From positions 1,887,001 through 1,951,000 of the forward strand of contig NZ_CP045851.1 of assembly GCF_009650215.1 (NCBI RefSeq): a stretch of 64,000 nt of DNA, in the 5' to 3' direction. The notes under the pieces were generated by a model. The model was not told the DNA's origin. It worked only from the letters and a program-made list of their open reading frames with translations, and ran no database searches. This document shows positions 56,010 through 61,023 of the stretch, one piece after another (the stretch's first letter is position 1; each line of letters opens with the position of its first letter). Both the position numbers and the translations under genes were made by a program. Source of the DNA: Actinomarinicola tropica (lineage in GTDB: Bacteria; Actinomycetota; Acidimicrobiia; Acidimicrobiales; SKKL01).

Positions 56010-57320
56010 TCATGCGGGTGGTGTGGTGGGTGTGCGGTCGGGGCGGTGGATGGTCCAGGTGCCGTCGGGTGCGCGGGTGGGGTGCCAGCCGTGGTTCTTG
56101 AGCCGGTTGTGGGTGTCGCAGAGGACGGCGGCGTTGGCTTGGTCGGTGGGTCCGCCTCGGCTCGCGTCGATGGTGTGGTCGATCTGCAGGCCGCGTTGTC
56201 GGTGGCAGCCGTTCCAGATGCAGCGCAGTCCGTCGGGGTGGGCGAGGGTGTTGGTGAGCTCGGCAGCCTGGCGGGCCGAGCCGGTGAAGAACCTTCGGCG
56301 GCGTCCGAGGTCGATCACGTTGGAGTTGGCGTCGATGATCACGCGGCGGACCTGGCCGGCCAGTGCCGCGGCGACCACGTCGGACGGCGCGAGGGGCACC
56401 CCCGAGACGGTGCGGCAGAGGCGCGGCCCGGTCGGGTCGGCCACCGTCTCGGTGCCGGTGAGGGCGGTCTCGAAGGTGTGCAGGTCGACCACGATGTTGA
56501 CCAGCGGCACGGCCCGGCCGACGGTGGAGGCCGCGCGGGCGAAGATCGCGGCGAGGGCGTCGGCGCCGCGCTGGGCGGCGCTGCGGGGCAGGTCGGCGTC
56601 GGTGGCGGCGTCGCCGAGCCGGGCGCGTGCCTCGGTCCAGTCCGCGAGGAGCTCGGCACGGGCGAACCACTCGAAGGTCTCCGCGATGGCGGCGCCCTGG
56701 AGGTTCCCGAACCCGCCGGTGAGGCTGAACCCGCCGTCGAAGTTCTCCACCACCGACCCGCTCCGTCGCGCGTGGGTCGTCTCGGCGTCCTGTTCGGTGC
56801 CGTCGACATCGGCGAGGCGTTCCCACTCCCGCAACCACCGACAGAACCCCTCATGGCCCTCGCTGCGTGCCATCTCGACGAGCACGTCCTCGACCAGCGG
56901 CAACAGATGACCGACCCGGGGGTTGCGGGCCACCCGCTCGACCGCCCGCACATGCCCGGTCGGCACCTCCCCCGCCTGATGCGCCGCGGCCAGCGCCGGC
57001 AGGTCCCGCAGCACACGGGCGCACTGCACCCGAGCCCGGGCCTCGGCGTGTGGCAACCGGCCCAGGTGACGCACCGCCACCGCCGCCGACACCAGACCAT
57101 CCACCACATACGCCTGGGAGCGGTCCAGGTGCCCCGCGAGGCGGTCGGTCACCGCGTCCAACCGGCGGCGCAGGACCTCCACGTCGCGCACCAACCGCAT
57201 CTCCGAGCGGGCATCCAACGCATCGAGATCCACCGCCCCGAGCAGATCCACCGCCCGCGCCAACGCCGACAACGCCCCAGCCACCGTCGACTCCGCTTCC
57301 CCGACATCGAGCAGCACCAC
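56010..57320 (-). CDS. DUF222/HNH endonuclease-domain protein
   Basis: About 436 residues. The first 300 form the DUF222 (13E12-repeat-like) region with DARSEMRLVRDVEVLRRRLD and AVAVRHLGRLPHAEARARV. The C-terminal HNH domain has CIWNGCHRQRGLQIDHTIDA, RGGPT, and LCDTHNRLKNHGWH, with the first His-Asp and zinc cysteines kept. Such genes occur in many copies in actinobacteria and are suspected nucleases of uncertain role. The start is unclear: GTG at 57320 has GGGAGG at good spacing; GTG at 57425 is possible. Confidence 0.8.
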   Translation of the reverse strand: MVLLDVGEAESTVAGALSALARAVDLLGAVDLDALDARSEMRLVRDVEVLRRRLDAVTDRLAGHLDRSQAYVVDGLVSAAVAVRHLGRLPHAEARARVQCARVLRDLPALAAAHQAGEVPTGHVRAVERVARNPRVGHLLPLVEDVLVEMARSEGHEGFCRWLREWERLADVDGTEQDAETTHARRSGSVVENFDGGFSLTGGFGNLQGAAIAETFEWFARAELLADWTEARARLGDAATDADLPRSAAQRGADALAAIFARAASTVGRAVPLVNIVVDLHTFETALTGTETVADPTGPRLCRTVSGVPLAPSDVVAAALAGQVRRVIIDANSNVIDLGRRRRFFTGSARQAAELTNTLAHPDGLRCIWNGCHRQRGLQIDHTIDASRGGPTDQANAAVLCDTHNRLKNHGWHPTRAPDGTWTIHRPDRTPTTPPA

Positions 57321-57473
57321 CGGTGCCACCTCCCACTCGCCATCGCCGCACACAAGCCGGCACCGAAGCCGACGAACACGGCAGTCCGGACCCGGGGAAG
57401 AACGACCCGACCACCTGCACACCACCCTACGCAGGGGGTGTGACAGTCGACGTCGGTGCGACGCAGCTGTGGG

Positions 57474-58017: not shown

Positions 58018-58221
58018 TCAGACCTCGACGTCGTCGGGTTCGCGGAGGATGGACGCGGCCTTCTCGACGGCCCGACGAGCCCGGGTGAGGCGCTTCTCGT
58101 CGACTGGGAGCTCACTGCCGCCCGCATCGATCGACTCACGAAGTCGGGCGATGGCGAGATCGGCCAGCTCCTCGGAGATCGCCTCGAGCCTCGTGCGAAT
58201 GTCATCGAACTCCCCCGACAT
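58018..58221 (-). CDS. Small helical hypothetical protein
   Basis: 67 residues, predicted two long helices (FDDIRTRLEAISEELADLAI and DEKRLTRARRAVEKAASIL), acidic. Not assigned to a family. ATG preceded by GAGGAG. The downstream kinase begins 2 nt after its stop, suggesting a functional pair. Confidence 0.55.
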   Translation of the reverse strand: MSGEFDDIRTRLEAISEELADLAIARLRESIDAGGSELPVDEKRLTRARRAVEKAASILREPDDVEV

Positions 58222-58323: not shown

Positions 58324-58329
58324 TACCCT
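58324..58329 (+). promoter_or_regulatory. -10 box TACCCT, leaderless start of the Cys-rich/McrB-like operon
   Basis: TACCCT ends 8 nt before the ATG at 58337. Confidence 0.5.
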
Positions 58330-58336
58330 CGCCACG

Positions 58337-59068
58337 ATGTCGATCCTGTCCGGCGAGATCCACGAGTGGGTCTCCTTCGTCGACGAGCACCAGGACACCT
58401 GGATCTTCGACCTCACCTTCCTCACCAGCCCCTGGACGTGCATCTTCGGCCGGGGGTGCCCGGGCATCCTCACCGAGCCCGCGCCGGAGCTGGCGCAGGG
58501 CTGCTGCTCCTACGGCGCCCACTTCACCGACTCGGAGGACGTGGCGAAGGTCGAGGCCGCGGCCGCCCGCCTGACCCCCGCCACCTGGGAGCACATCGAC
58601 GAGGCCCGACGCCAGGGCGGACCGCTCGAGGAGGTCGACGGCACCACCGTGTCGCTGCTCGTCGATGACGCCTGCATCTTCCTGAACGGTCCCGACTTCC
58701 CCGGCGGTCCGGGGTGCGCGCTGCACCGTGCCGCGCTCGAGCACGACGAGCGCCCGCTCGACTGGAAGCCGGCGGTCTGCTGGCAGGTGCCGCTGCGGCT
58801 CGTGACCTCGACCGACGAGAACGAGCGGACGACCTACACGCTGCGGGAGTGGCAGCGCGGCGACTGGGGCGACGGCGGGTACGAGTTCAACTGGTGGTGC
58901 ACCGACGCACCGGAGGCGTTCGTCGGCCACCGCCCCGTGTACGAGGAGATGCGTGACGAGATCATCGAGATGGTCGGGATCGAGCTGTACGCGCGCTTCG
59001 TCCAGTACGTCGAGGCGCGGGGGTCATCGGTCGCAGTTCCTCATCCCGCGCTCAAGAAACGACGCTAG
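58337..59068 (+). CDS. Cysteine-rich protein, possible metal or Fe-S binder
   Basis: 243 residues with eight cysteines (35, 41, 56, 57, 113, 127, 148, 188) in clusters: SPWTCIFGRGCPGI, GCCSYGAHF, DDACIFLNG, GPGCALHRAAL, AVCWQVPL, WWCTDAPE. The CxxxxxC, CC and GCALH patterns resemble YkgJ-type zinc- or iron-cluster proteins, but assignment is tentative. It is first in a tight plus-strand row: the McrB-like gene follows after 18 bp and the McrC-like gene after that. No signal peptide. Confidence 0.7.
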   Translation: MSILSGEIHEWVSFVDEHQDTWIFDLTFLTSPWTCIFGRGCPGILTEPAPELAQGCCSYGAHFTDSEDVAKVEAAAARLTPATWEHIDEARRQGGPLEEVDGTTVSLLVDDACIFLNGPDFPGGPGCALHRAALEHDERPLDWKPAVCWQVPLRLVTSTDENERTTYTLREWQRGDWGDGGYEFNWWCTDAPEAFVGHRPVYEEMRDEIIEMVGIELYARFVQYVEARGSSVAVPHPALKKRR

Positions 59069-59086
59069 ACGTCCGACGGTGACAGG

Positions 59087-60022
59087 GTGAACGGCTTCAC
59101 GCGCGACGCGCTCCAACGATCGATCGACGCCAAGGGGATCTTGTTCCCGCCCCACGTGCTCGACCAGGTCGTCGCGGCGATCGACGCCGGCAAGCACCTG
59201 ATCCTCACCGGACCCCCGGGCACCGGCAAGACCACGCTCGCCTACGTCGCCGCCGAGGTCGCCCAGAAGGCCATGCTCTGCACGGGCTACCTCCCGACGA
59301 CGGCCACCAGCGAGTGGACCACGTTCGAGACGATCGGCGGGCTCCAGCCGACCGCCGAGGGCCTCATCTACCGGCCGGGCCTGTTCGTCGAAGCGATCAT
59401 GACCGGGCGCTGGCTGGTGATCGACGAGCTCAACCGCTCCAACTTCGACCGGGCGTTCGGGCAGCTGTTCACGGTCCTCTCCGGCTCGCCGGTGGTCCTG
59501 CCCTTCAAGCGATCGGGCCAGCCGCAGCCGATCTCGATCGTGCCGTCCGGCATCGATCCGCCCGACGACACCGACGTGATCCGCATGCCGGCGTCGTGGC
59601 GGATCATCGCCACGATGAACGTCTTCGACAAGAACCTCCTGTTCGAGATGTCGTACGCGCTCATGCGCCGCTTCGCCTTCATCGAGGTGGGCACGCCGGA
59701 CGAGGACGCCTACGTGAAGCTCCTCCAGGGTCCTGGCGAGATCGTCACGCGGCTCCTGCCGCTGCGCCGCTTCAGCGACCTCGGGCCTGCGGTGTTCCTC
59801 GACGCCGCCCGCTACGCGGCCCGACGGGCCGAGGACGGCACCTCCGAGTCGCGCCTGCTGTACGAGGTCTTCTACGCCTACTTCCTGCCGCAGTTCGAGG
59901 GCATGGACGACGACAAGGCCACCGCCCTCTACCGGACGGTCGAGCCGCTGTTCGACGAGCCCGAGCGCCTCGAGGCGCAGCGGACGATCGGCGAGGTCCT
60001 CGGCATCGAGCTGTCGATCTGA
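59087..60022 (+). CDS. McrB-like AAA+ ATPase
   Basis: 311 residues. Walker A TGPPGTGKT (41-49), Walker B WLVIDELNRSN (109-119), sensor I RIIATMNVFDKNLL with N178, and ALMRRFAFIEV giving the arginine-finger region (R194/R195). The MNxxD sensor and ELNRSN are McrB-like rather than typical MoxR. McrB proteins are GTP- or ATP-driven motors that activate a partner subunit encoded next door. No DNA-recognition N-terminal domain is present, so target choice must come from elsewhere. GTG start with a weak AGGG. Confidence 0.85.
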   Translation: MNGFTRDALQRSIDAKGILFPPHVLDQVVAAIDAGKHLILTGPPGTGKTTLAYVAAEVAQKAMLCTGYLPTTATSEWTTFETIGGLQPTAEGLIYRPGLFVEAIMTGRWLVIDELNRSNFDRAFGQLFTVLSGSPVVLPFKRSGQPQPISIVPSGIDPPDDTDVIRMPASWRIIATMNVFDKNLLFEMSYALMRRFAFIEVGTPDEDAYVKLLQGPGEIVTRLLPLRRFSDLGPAVFLDAARYAARRAEDGTSESRLLYEVFYAYFLPQFEGMDDDKATALYRTVEPLFDEPERLEAQRTIGEVLGIELSI

Positions 60023-60030
60023 GCCCGACG

Positions 60031-61023
60031 ATGCCCGTCGCCGTCGGTCACGCCACGCCCACCCACGAGATGTGGAGCCGGCTGCGACGCCCGTTCGACA
60101 CGCCCGAGGTCGTCGACGCCGCGCTCGGGCTGTCCGAGGAGGTCATCGACCAGCTGATCGGCAGCCGGCTGGCCTCCGGTGACGGGGCGGAGCGGCTCCT
60201 CGCCCGCATGCCGGTCATCTCACGGGCGCTCTCGACCGCCATCCAGAAGCGGCCGGAGCGCTGCAGCGGCGAGCTGCGGGGCCCGGTCCTCTGGAGCGAG
60301 ACGATGGCGGCGCGCGGCGCGAGCTACGCCGCCGAGGACGTGTTCGTGTGCGCCGTCCCGCGGCGGCACTACGACACCGACGAGAACCGGATCCTGGTGG
60401 CGGCCCTGGTGGCGATCCGCGACGCCGGGCGGGCCACCGACGCCCTGCCGGCCGACGCCTACGACGACGAGGTCCTGCGGCTGGCCCGCGCGAACGGCCA
60501 GAAGGCCGACCGCTGGCTGCACACCCAGCACCTGATCACGGTGCCGCGGACCCGTCCCACGCCGCGGGAGATCCGCCGGGTGCGCGCCGGGAGCCGCAAG
60601 GGGACCTACACGCCGGCCGTGCGCGTCCTCGAGGAGGCGCTCGAGCCGCTCACGGTCGACGACCTCCTCCCCTACTGCGACCGCCGGACCCGCGCCCAGC
60701 ACGCCGTCCTCGTCGGCCTGGCGGCGCGCCTGGAGGCACGAGGGCAGCGGGTGCCGCACCTGCGTGCTCGCGACGGCGTCCTGCGGGCCGGCCCGCTCGA
60801 GTACCGCCACCCTCGCCTGCGCGGCGCCAACGCCGGGCTCCACGGCATCCTCCTCGGGGACGTCCTCGTCGACGTGCCGCCCGCCGGCGCGATGGCCCGA
60901 CGGGACGTCGTCGTCGACTCGCTGCGGAGCCGAGCCGAGGGACGCCGCGTCGTCGCCGTGTTCGACGACGACGACCTGGATCGCGCCGTCGAGCTGTGGG
61001 CGGGCCCGCCCGCCGTGCCCTGA
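60031..61023 (+). CDS. McrC/DUF2357-like partner of the AAA+ ATPase, no nuclease motif seen
   Basis: 330 residues. RGPVLWSETMAARG (83-96) followed by VCAVPRRHYDTDENRILVAA (106-125) resembles the region of McrC/DUF2357-type proteins that binds the McrB-like hexamer. A basic Arg-rich middle (175-190) and a C-terminal alpha/beta end (RDVVVDSLRSRAEGRRVVAV, then FDDDDLDRAVELW) follow. A PD-(D/E)xK nuclease signature was searched for by eye and not found, so cleavage by this subunit is doubtful. ATG 8 nt after the ATPase stop; converges on typA with 4 bp between. Confidence 0.55.
   Translation: MPVAVGHATPTHEMWSRLRRPFDTPEVVDAALGLSEEVIDQLIGSRLASGDGAERLLARMPVISRALSTAIQKRPERCSGELRGPVLWSETMAARGASYAAEDVFVCAVPRRHYDTDENRILVAALVAIRDAGRATDALPADAYDDEVLRLARANGQKADRWLHTQHLITVPRTRPTPREIRRVRAGSRKGTYTPAVRVLEEALEPLTVDDLLPYCDRRTRAQHAVLVGLAARLEARGQRVPHLRARDGVLRAGPLEYRHPRLRGANAGLHGILLGDVLVDVPPAGAMARRDVVVDSLRSRAEGRRVVAVFDDDDLDRAVELWAGPPAVP

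Follow-up and report, generated by a model that had tools for sequence, protein, structure and literature searches.

A three-gene cluster of Actinomarinicola tropica, located in a 64,000-nucleotide stretch of its genome (contig NZ_CP045851.1, positions 1,887,001 to 1,951,000 of the forward strand; hereafter the window, numbered from its first letter), encodes a cysteine-rich protein (gene A), a McrB-like AAA+ motor (gene B) and a McrC-like partner (gene C), in which both arms of a McrBC restriction system are absent, the motor having no DNA-recognition domain and the partner no conserved PD-(D/E)xK nuclease site. To the reading that A-B-C is a disarmed McrBC derivative, in which B and C now most likely form a protein-remodelling machine with A as a possible client, we assign about an even chance. 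All three genes lie on the forward strand, namely gene A (58337-59068; 243 amino acids, remotely DUF3109-like), gene B (59087-60022; 311 amino acids) and gene C (60031-61023; 330 amino acids), with 18 bp between A and B and 8 bp between B and C. An earlier reading, made from the sequence alone (the sequence-only reading), had described this layout together with the eight cysteines of A, the Walker and MNxxD motifs of B and the two motifs of C, all of which were confirmed.

The McrB-like motor

Gene B encodes a compact motor whose Walker A motif, GPPGTGKT (59210-59233, + strand), and Walker B motif, WLVIDE (59411-59428, +), were located from the sequence and an alignment of B proteins, the latter running directly into ELNRSN. 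Further downstream, MNVFD (59615-59629, +) represents the MNxxD sensor-1, that is, the NxxD signature which an excerpt of PMC11090510 ascribes to McrB-type NTPases. N178 and D181 of this motif are invariant in 11/11 aligned rows, and B reads MNVFDKN here, so the full MNxxDRS of McrB is not present.

Among the 25 Pfam families listed in the scan of A, B and C, AAA_5 on B (E 4e-16) was the sole family above its cut-off; the best NCBIfam match of B was McrB (PRK11331; 2.6e-8, 33 bits, far under the cut-off of 637), and a B profile run against PDB sequences placed midasin (2.8e-21) and McrB (1.4e-13) as the nearest solved relatives. These comparisons support the assignment of B to McrB-like AAA+ proteins rather than to MoxR, in agreement with the McrB-type ATPase of the sequence-only reading. 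Placement of B within MoxR was considered and rejected, the MoxR-type models PF07726 (AAA_3; 14.4 bits against a cut-off of 27) and bpMoxR both remaining below their cut-offs, and PADLOC returned short weak matches only (best 5.1e-5).

No DNA-recognition domain was found on the motor by the Pfam scan, and B, at only 311 amino acids, has no room for one. This compactness is general, since B measures 309-312 amino acids (with the start chosen by the analyst) in 30 of the 31 loci drawn from GTDB, the remaining one ending at a contig edge.

The McrC-like partner

The fold of gene C supports its description as McrC-like. The window protein carries both motifs from which a DUF2357/McrC-like identity had been proposed, RGPVLWSETMAARG and YDTDENR (60370-60390, +), the second being delimited by alignment and profile comparison. 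An AlphaFold2 model of C, built with 29 natural sequences, reached a predicted local distance difference test (pLDDT) score of 92.2, and McrC headed both fold searches made with it: the top five rows of VIA-align 2 are all McrC (Z 10.7, 10.7, 9.5, 9.5 and 9.3, the next row standing at 5.8), and so are the first four Foldseek matches, two of them at E <= 0.001 and the best at 3.8e-5. In the 6ut5_G row, residues 41-205 of the C model align with residues 142-293 of the McrC chain (138 residues, root-mean-square deviation (rmsd) 4.3); the finger domain of that McrC spans residues 99-288, and its tip plugs the McrB pore (PMC7680126; compare PMC6624300).

Conservation and predicted secondary structure together delimit an RGPVLWSET loop-helix-loop at residues 80-103 of C (60268-60339, +), set between two long strands; in the AlphaFold2 model, strands 70-79 and 104-113 flank helix 88-97. 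The invariant residues of C are G33, R77, R83, G84, P85, W88, E90, T91, A94, C107, R112, N119 and H224, and seven of them (R83, G84, P85, W88, E90, T91 and A94) sit in this tip, the most conserved stretch of the protein, which probably corresponds to the tip of the McrC finger. An Arg/Lys residue of McrC repositions the NxxD motif of McrB (PMC7680126; also an excerpt of PMC11090510); in alignments R83 of C falls on the R/K-G of McrC, and it could do the same job on the NxxD motif of B.

The C-terminal lobe of C (residues 216-325; 60676-61005, +), defined by alignment and fold search, resembles PD-(D/E)xK folds weakly (Z about 3.5; VRR_NUC 4qbn 3.6, 3r3p 3.4). It is the least conserved part of the protein, and four relatives (L079, L080, L088 and L091) have a shortened version of it. 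No conserved PD-(D/E)xK site was found across the 29 aligned rows of C, one of which (L061) ends at a contig edge before the lobe, and a permissive motif search matched 1/29 rows (L068), out of place and attributable to chance. The earlier observation that neither a recognition domain nor a nuclease motif is visible thus holds under the Pfam scan, the alignment and the motif search alike. No VWA family was detected in A or C up to E 5 in Pfam, and a search of PDB sequences with C gave as its best match an aldehyde dehydrogenase (E 0.0041), taken as chance.

Armed relatives and comparison with known systems

Relatives that retain both arms were found on plasmids. Searches of plasmid proteins returned two haloarchaeal proteins for the C query and 51 records for the B query, from which eight records among the 25 B matches listed, including the two haloarchaeal ones, were sampled. 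Each haloarchaeal C-like protein (L169, L170) lies directly 3' of an AAA protein of 1099 or 1060 amino acids that combines an EVE domain with an AAA_5 domain and matches B at 195 and 183 bits; an excerpt of PMC7641849 describes the fusion of EVE to McrB as a known layout of restriction systems. Across the sample, the motors measure 391-1099 amino acids and score 181-229 bits against the B profile, seven of eight carry an N-terminal extension of about 170 amino acids or more (EVE in the two scanned), and PD-x-ExK is present in all seven partners examined, six of which match the C profile (42-73 bits) and one of which, from Paenarthrobacter (281 amino acids, L174), does not; the eighth motor (L177) is followed on its 3' side by a transposase. 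Because these relatives keep the nuclease motif and the motor extension, B-C of the window looks like a disarmed derivative of McrBC. In addition, an actinobacterial genome (L059) encodes a C-like protein with PD-x-DxK behind a B-like AAA protein. In a B tree made by a quick method, with long branches flagged by the program, the disarmed rows fall on one side of one branch (Shimodaira-Hasegawa-like approximate likelihood ratio test 87), which allows, and does not prove, a single origin of disarmed B-C.

With Type IV McrBC systems (E. coli, T. gammatolerans), B-C shares an NxxD AAA+ motor beside a partner of McrC-finger fold, in the order motor-partner, and A-B-C probably works on the same ring-and-plug principle. 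It differs from them in that no McrC N-terminal scaffold barrel is visible, C beginning instead with helices, in the MNxxDK that replaces MNxxDRS in B, in the cysteine-rich gene in front and in the recurrent chromosomal place; above all, the recognition domain and the conserved PD-(D/E)xK site are lacking, and since these two defining features were looked for and are absent, A-B-C is not classed as a Type IV restriction system. Among the eight plasmid records examined, the haloarchaeal EVE-McrB/McrC-like pairs (L169, L170) and a Priestia pair (L172) are closest to B (183-229 bits) and C (53-73 bits); unlike B-C, they are armed, with a long N-terminal motor extension (EVE in the haloarchaeal pairs) and a PD-x-ExK partner, and their neighbours are of restriction type (PglZ, DUF499, cytosine methylase, restriction enzyme). 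CoCoNuT systems of Types II, III-B and III-C, as described in an excerpt of PMC11090510, are likewise McrBC branches with an inactivated nuclease lobe, but are marked by an NxD motor motif, coiled-coils and HEPN/Hsp70 partners; B has NxxD instead of NxD, and the CoCoNuT partner families were unmatched in A, B and C.

Separately from C, a true McrC (PF10117) was found in 9/59 genomes of the order, the window's own included, where it lies outside the window (G000:C1:3483933-3484892; 73 bits); this gene is the most divergent of seven aligned McrC (22% identity to the first) and retains PD and ExKY.

Genomic distribution, synteny and selection

The motor and its partner occur together, as a co-occurrence check proposed with the sequence-only reading would have it. 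In 118 genomes of the order (thresholds E <= 1e-20 for B and E <= 0.001 for C), C was found in 12 and strong B in the identical 12, with A directly 5' of B-C in 10 of them. Of 32 GTDB loci with C (six of which are the same contigs as genomes among those 12), 28 have A-B-C in the same order and on the same strand; three start inside C, inside B or 21 nucleotides before B and are hence not judgeable, so that A stands immediately before B-C in 28 of 29 judgeable loci. In the exception, L079, an extra gene (L079:1-870) is interposed between the apparent A tail and B; we take it to encode a DinB/TIGR03084-like metal-binding protein. A survey of 396 genomes across the phylum, in which the best few candidates were scored per genome and all counts are lower bounds, gave the C profile in at least 5 (four in the order and the L059 genome) and A in at least 83. 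Two genomes of the order (G034, G098) contain only distant B-like genes, with no C-like neighbour found within their short loci.

The earlier proposal of a single leaderless promoter agrees with the comparative evidence. In the window, the leaderless-type -10 element TACCCT (58324-58329, +) lies 7 nucleotides 5' of the ATG of A. TANNNT occurs 3-10 nucleotides 5' of the A start in 18/28 GTDB loci and is missing in 10/28 (starts as chosen by the analyst), compared with 2/29 before B and 0/31 before C at the same spacing, and with chance levels of 348/14000 (2.5%) in shuffled upstream DNA and 24/6400 (0.4%) at random places. A promoter-like element before A only fits a single leaderless operon promoter for A-B-C.

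The chromosomal surroundings recur as Tal - FbiC - LOG - A-B-C - BipA/ClC - RNase D - MobA, the markers having been chosen from recurrent neighbours of the same loci. At least one marker is present in each of the 28 GTDB loci longer than 8 kb (in L080 a weak LOG match only), RNase D in 24, and Tal, LOG, BipA and ClC are found in the window itself. The same place, with at least two markers, is occupied by A without B-C in 8 of the 9 single-A loci of the order examined, by neither of two second A copies and, dinB-like matches aside, by none of seven A loci of other classes; one A locus from another order of the class shows two markers. Distances between B proteins correlate with the distances of the flanking proteins LOG (r 0.90), RNase D (0.70) and FbiC (0.56), values unmatched in 999 permutations, and the corresponding ranges are 0.41-0.65 for A and 0.52-0.75 for C. 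A reading of the locus as a mobile defence island was rejected, the synteny being that of a recurrent housekeeping neighbourhood. Pattern-based scans of viral contigs found neither B nor C, and the single match to B in a phage search was partial and lay in an archaeal provirus. One locus labelled Acidobacteria (L062) has the same flanks as the others and groups with them; a mislabelled bin is likely, though not proven.

Purifying selection acts on A, B and C in the pairs tested. In a sample of 12 hand-picked pairs (11 for A; 11 values for C, one being undefined), the ratio of nonsynonymous to synonymous substitution (dN/dS) was 0.02-0.24 for B, 0.06-0.40 for A and 0.06-0.42 for C, thus below 0.45 throughout; many pairs have synonymous distances close to or exceeding 1, which makes these ratios rough. 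Identity to the window protein ranges over 48-60% for A (9 rows) and 25-63% for C (10 rows).

The cysteine-rich protein

Eight cysteines of A (C35, C41, C56, C57, C113, C127, C148 and C188) are kept in 84/84 rows of its family, representing 83 distinct genes with or without B-C, second copies and outgroups included and two rows with too little flank omitted. Their conservation suggests that A is probably a metal- or Fe-S-binding protein. DUF3109 matched the window protein below its cut-off (19.4 bits against a gathering score of 33.5) and was matched at E <= 1 by 7/10 A members (best 8.9e-7); no DUF3109 was found in the window's own genome at E <= 0.001. PADLOC gave no family for A or C, a search of PDB sequences with A was topped by alphaRep designs (best E 0.0043), taken as chance, and a fold search returned two rows (Z 2.6 and 2.4), unusable at the confidence of the A model.

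The sub-cut-off DUF3109 match likens A to proteins of the DUF3109/Rv0495c type, as does the position of some of its relatives: in at least 4/7 loci of other classes (L105-L108), and likewise on a Tsukamurella plasmid, A and Ppx/GppA are divergent neighbours, an arrangement that we take to be the one of Rv0495c-Rv0496. Rv0495c has reportedly been linked to redox homeostasis, to judge from the title of a paper. Unlike these relatives, A of the window occupies a different neighbourhood, in front of B-C. Some genomes of the order have a second, shorter A copy elsewhere on the chromosome (L093:7464-8126, L101:7727-9175), and a distant A homologue of 28% identity was noted on an 84-kb viral-class contig (L168:4908-5888), with no B or C in the stretch examined.

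Adjacent features

Immediately 5' of A, a small helical protein is encoded on the opposite strand (58018-58221, -), and a similar small gene precedes B in L024. Further 5' of the operon, between dinB and a kinase gene, lies an HNH-type gene (56010-57425, -), presumably DUF222-like. Repeats across the locus amount to short imperfect pairs in GC-rich coding DNA.

Proposed function and alternative readings

In the mechanism proposed here, B would form a McrB-type hexameric NTPase ring, as its family suggests, and the stalk of C, tipped by the invariant RGPxxWxETxxA segment, would enter the ring pore and stimulate the NTPase of B in the manner of McrC, as fold and conservation suggest. The motor would have lost its recognition domain and the partner its PD-(D/E)xK active site, and because both are gone A-B-C would not restrict DNA; in this lineage, B-C would then have settled at one chromosomal place, immediately 3' of A. 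Since ring and plug are kept and reader and scissors lost, since the place recurs and since selection is seen throughout, the target would be something other than modified DNA, and the function of B-C probably differs from the original role in DNA-cutting defence.

If RavA-ViaA and other pairs of an AAA+ motor with an adaptor are a guide, B-C could remodel, as a chaperone or in an activase-like way, A or something handled by A. RavA-ViaA, a motor with a dedicated adaptor, acts in a chaperone-like way on a redox enzyme (excerpt of PMC10585395), and the comparison concerns the way of working only, since B lies under the MoxR models and the fold of C is that of McrC and not of VWA. The shared promoter and the near-constant gene order make A the obvious candidate client; we hold this identification tentatively, at clearly less than even odds. 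A more specific version, in which the McrB ring and McrC plug would act as an activase that loads, repairs or switches the metal or Fe-S centre of A, appears doubtful. To our knowledge no McrBC-derived chaperone has been described, so the activase would be the first, and our keyword searches of an open-licence library found no paper on the A-B-C operon.

Several observations weigh against the remodelling reading or its components. On the side of C, every Pfam model was missed, PF10117 and PF09823 included, and NCBIfam and PADLOC likewise gave no family. For VIA-align 2, Z below about 13 may reflect only a common arrangement in helical models; the McrC match is nevertheless trusted because the top five rows belong to one family and stand far above the rest. 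The full-length McrC rows have rmsd values of 10-11.5, and therefore the lobes of C are placed differently. Profile comparison is weak as well, with a probability of 51% (E 1.6e-4) against seven true McrC (alignment A4) and 33% against alignment A3; the alignment nevertheless pairs the conserved motifs, namely the RGPVLWSET region and YDTDENR. Among the plasmid relatives, the L173 motor has an N-terminal extension of only about 40 amino acids and a transposase just upstream.

On the side of A, the gene is far more widespread than its partners, being found in 95/118 genomes of the order, 84 of them without B-C. Some alignment columns of A differ with the presence of B-C, but sister pairs with and without B-C are alike, so the differences are read as phylogeny; occurring alone so often and showing no clear B-C-dependent change, A does not need B-C. 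The model of A is poor (pLDDT 75) and matched no fold, so that metal binding is argued from the cysteines. As to the linkage, G107 has B-C but no A at this place, in G010 (whose contig is that of L079) an apparent A tail at the contig end is followed by another gene, and the A-B gap reaches 110 nucleotides among relatives. Finally, B-C is distributed patchily on the A tree, with at least 13 changes of presence and absence, six of them forced by well-supported branches; an early arrival of B-C behind A followed by repeated loss would be the simplest reading, and the tree by itself does not distinguish gains from losses.

The alternative that survives best is a non-cleaving nucleic-acid machine (a translocase, roadblock or regulator), in which the degenerate lobe of C would bind DNA or RNA and A would merely be an old neighbour. 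Its kinship with armed DNA-restriction motors, the residual PD-(D/E)xK resemblance of the lobe, the nucleic-acid binding proposed for the inactivated lobes of Type II and III-B/C CoCoNuTs (excerpt of PMC11090510) and the occupation of the same place by A alone all speak for it, but the lobe is the least conserved and a repeatedly shortened part of C, the motor has no recognition domain, and both the promoter-like element before A only and the constant position of A before B are harder to accommodate, so that we regard it as rather unlikely.

A non-cleaving defence system, with A as sensor or effector, was the suggestion of the sequence-only reading, and kinship to McrBC and the patchy presence of B-C with repeated change would be expected of one. 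Against it stand the housekeeping neighbourhood, the tracking of flanking genes by B, the empty viral scans and the PADLOC results; B is, moreover, the slowest-evolving of the three genes, which would be unlike most defence motors. The role given to A sits poorly with its distribution, the gene outnumbering C in the phylum survey as it does in the order. Neither the defence device nor the sensor or effector role drew support, and we judge the reading improbable.

That nuclease activity has been retained, through an active site in C or A that escaped recognition, is more improbable again: the motif test covered the canonical motif only and the lobe keeps its weak likeness to PD-(D/E)xK folds, but C has no invariant acidic/Lys set, most of its invariant residues lie in or beside the finger, and the lobe is shortened in four C proteins. 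A decaying restriction remnant on its way out, to which the absence of B-C from most genomes of the order might point, as might one genome (G011/L019; L019:8736-9790) in which B lies in three pieces and frames, by decay or possibly sequencing error, beside an intact C and an A merely shorter at its start, is hardly credible given the low dN/dS ratios, particularly those of B, and the 67-88% identity of B to the window protein in 10 other rows.

Significance

A-B-C, read as a disarmed McrBC derivative, is a natural case in which the motor and activator of McrBC have parted from recognition and cleavage; armed relatives are available for comparison, and B-C thereby makes testable the question of what a McrB ring does alone. 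If B-C acts on A, the system would also offer a handle on a widespread, uncharacterised cysteine-rich family of actinobacteria, which may include Rv0495c.

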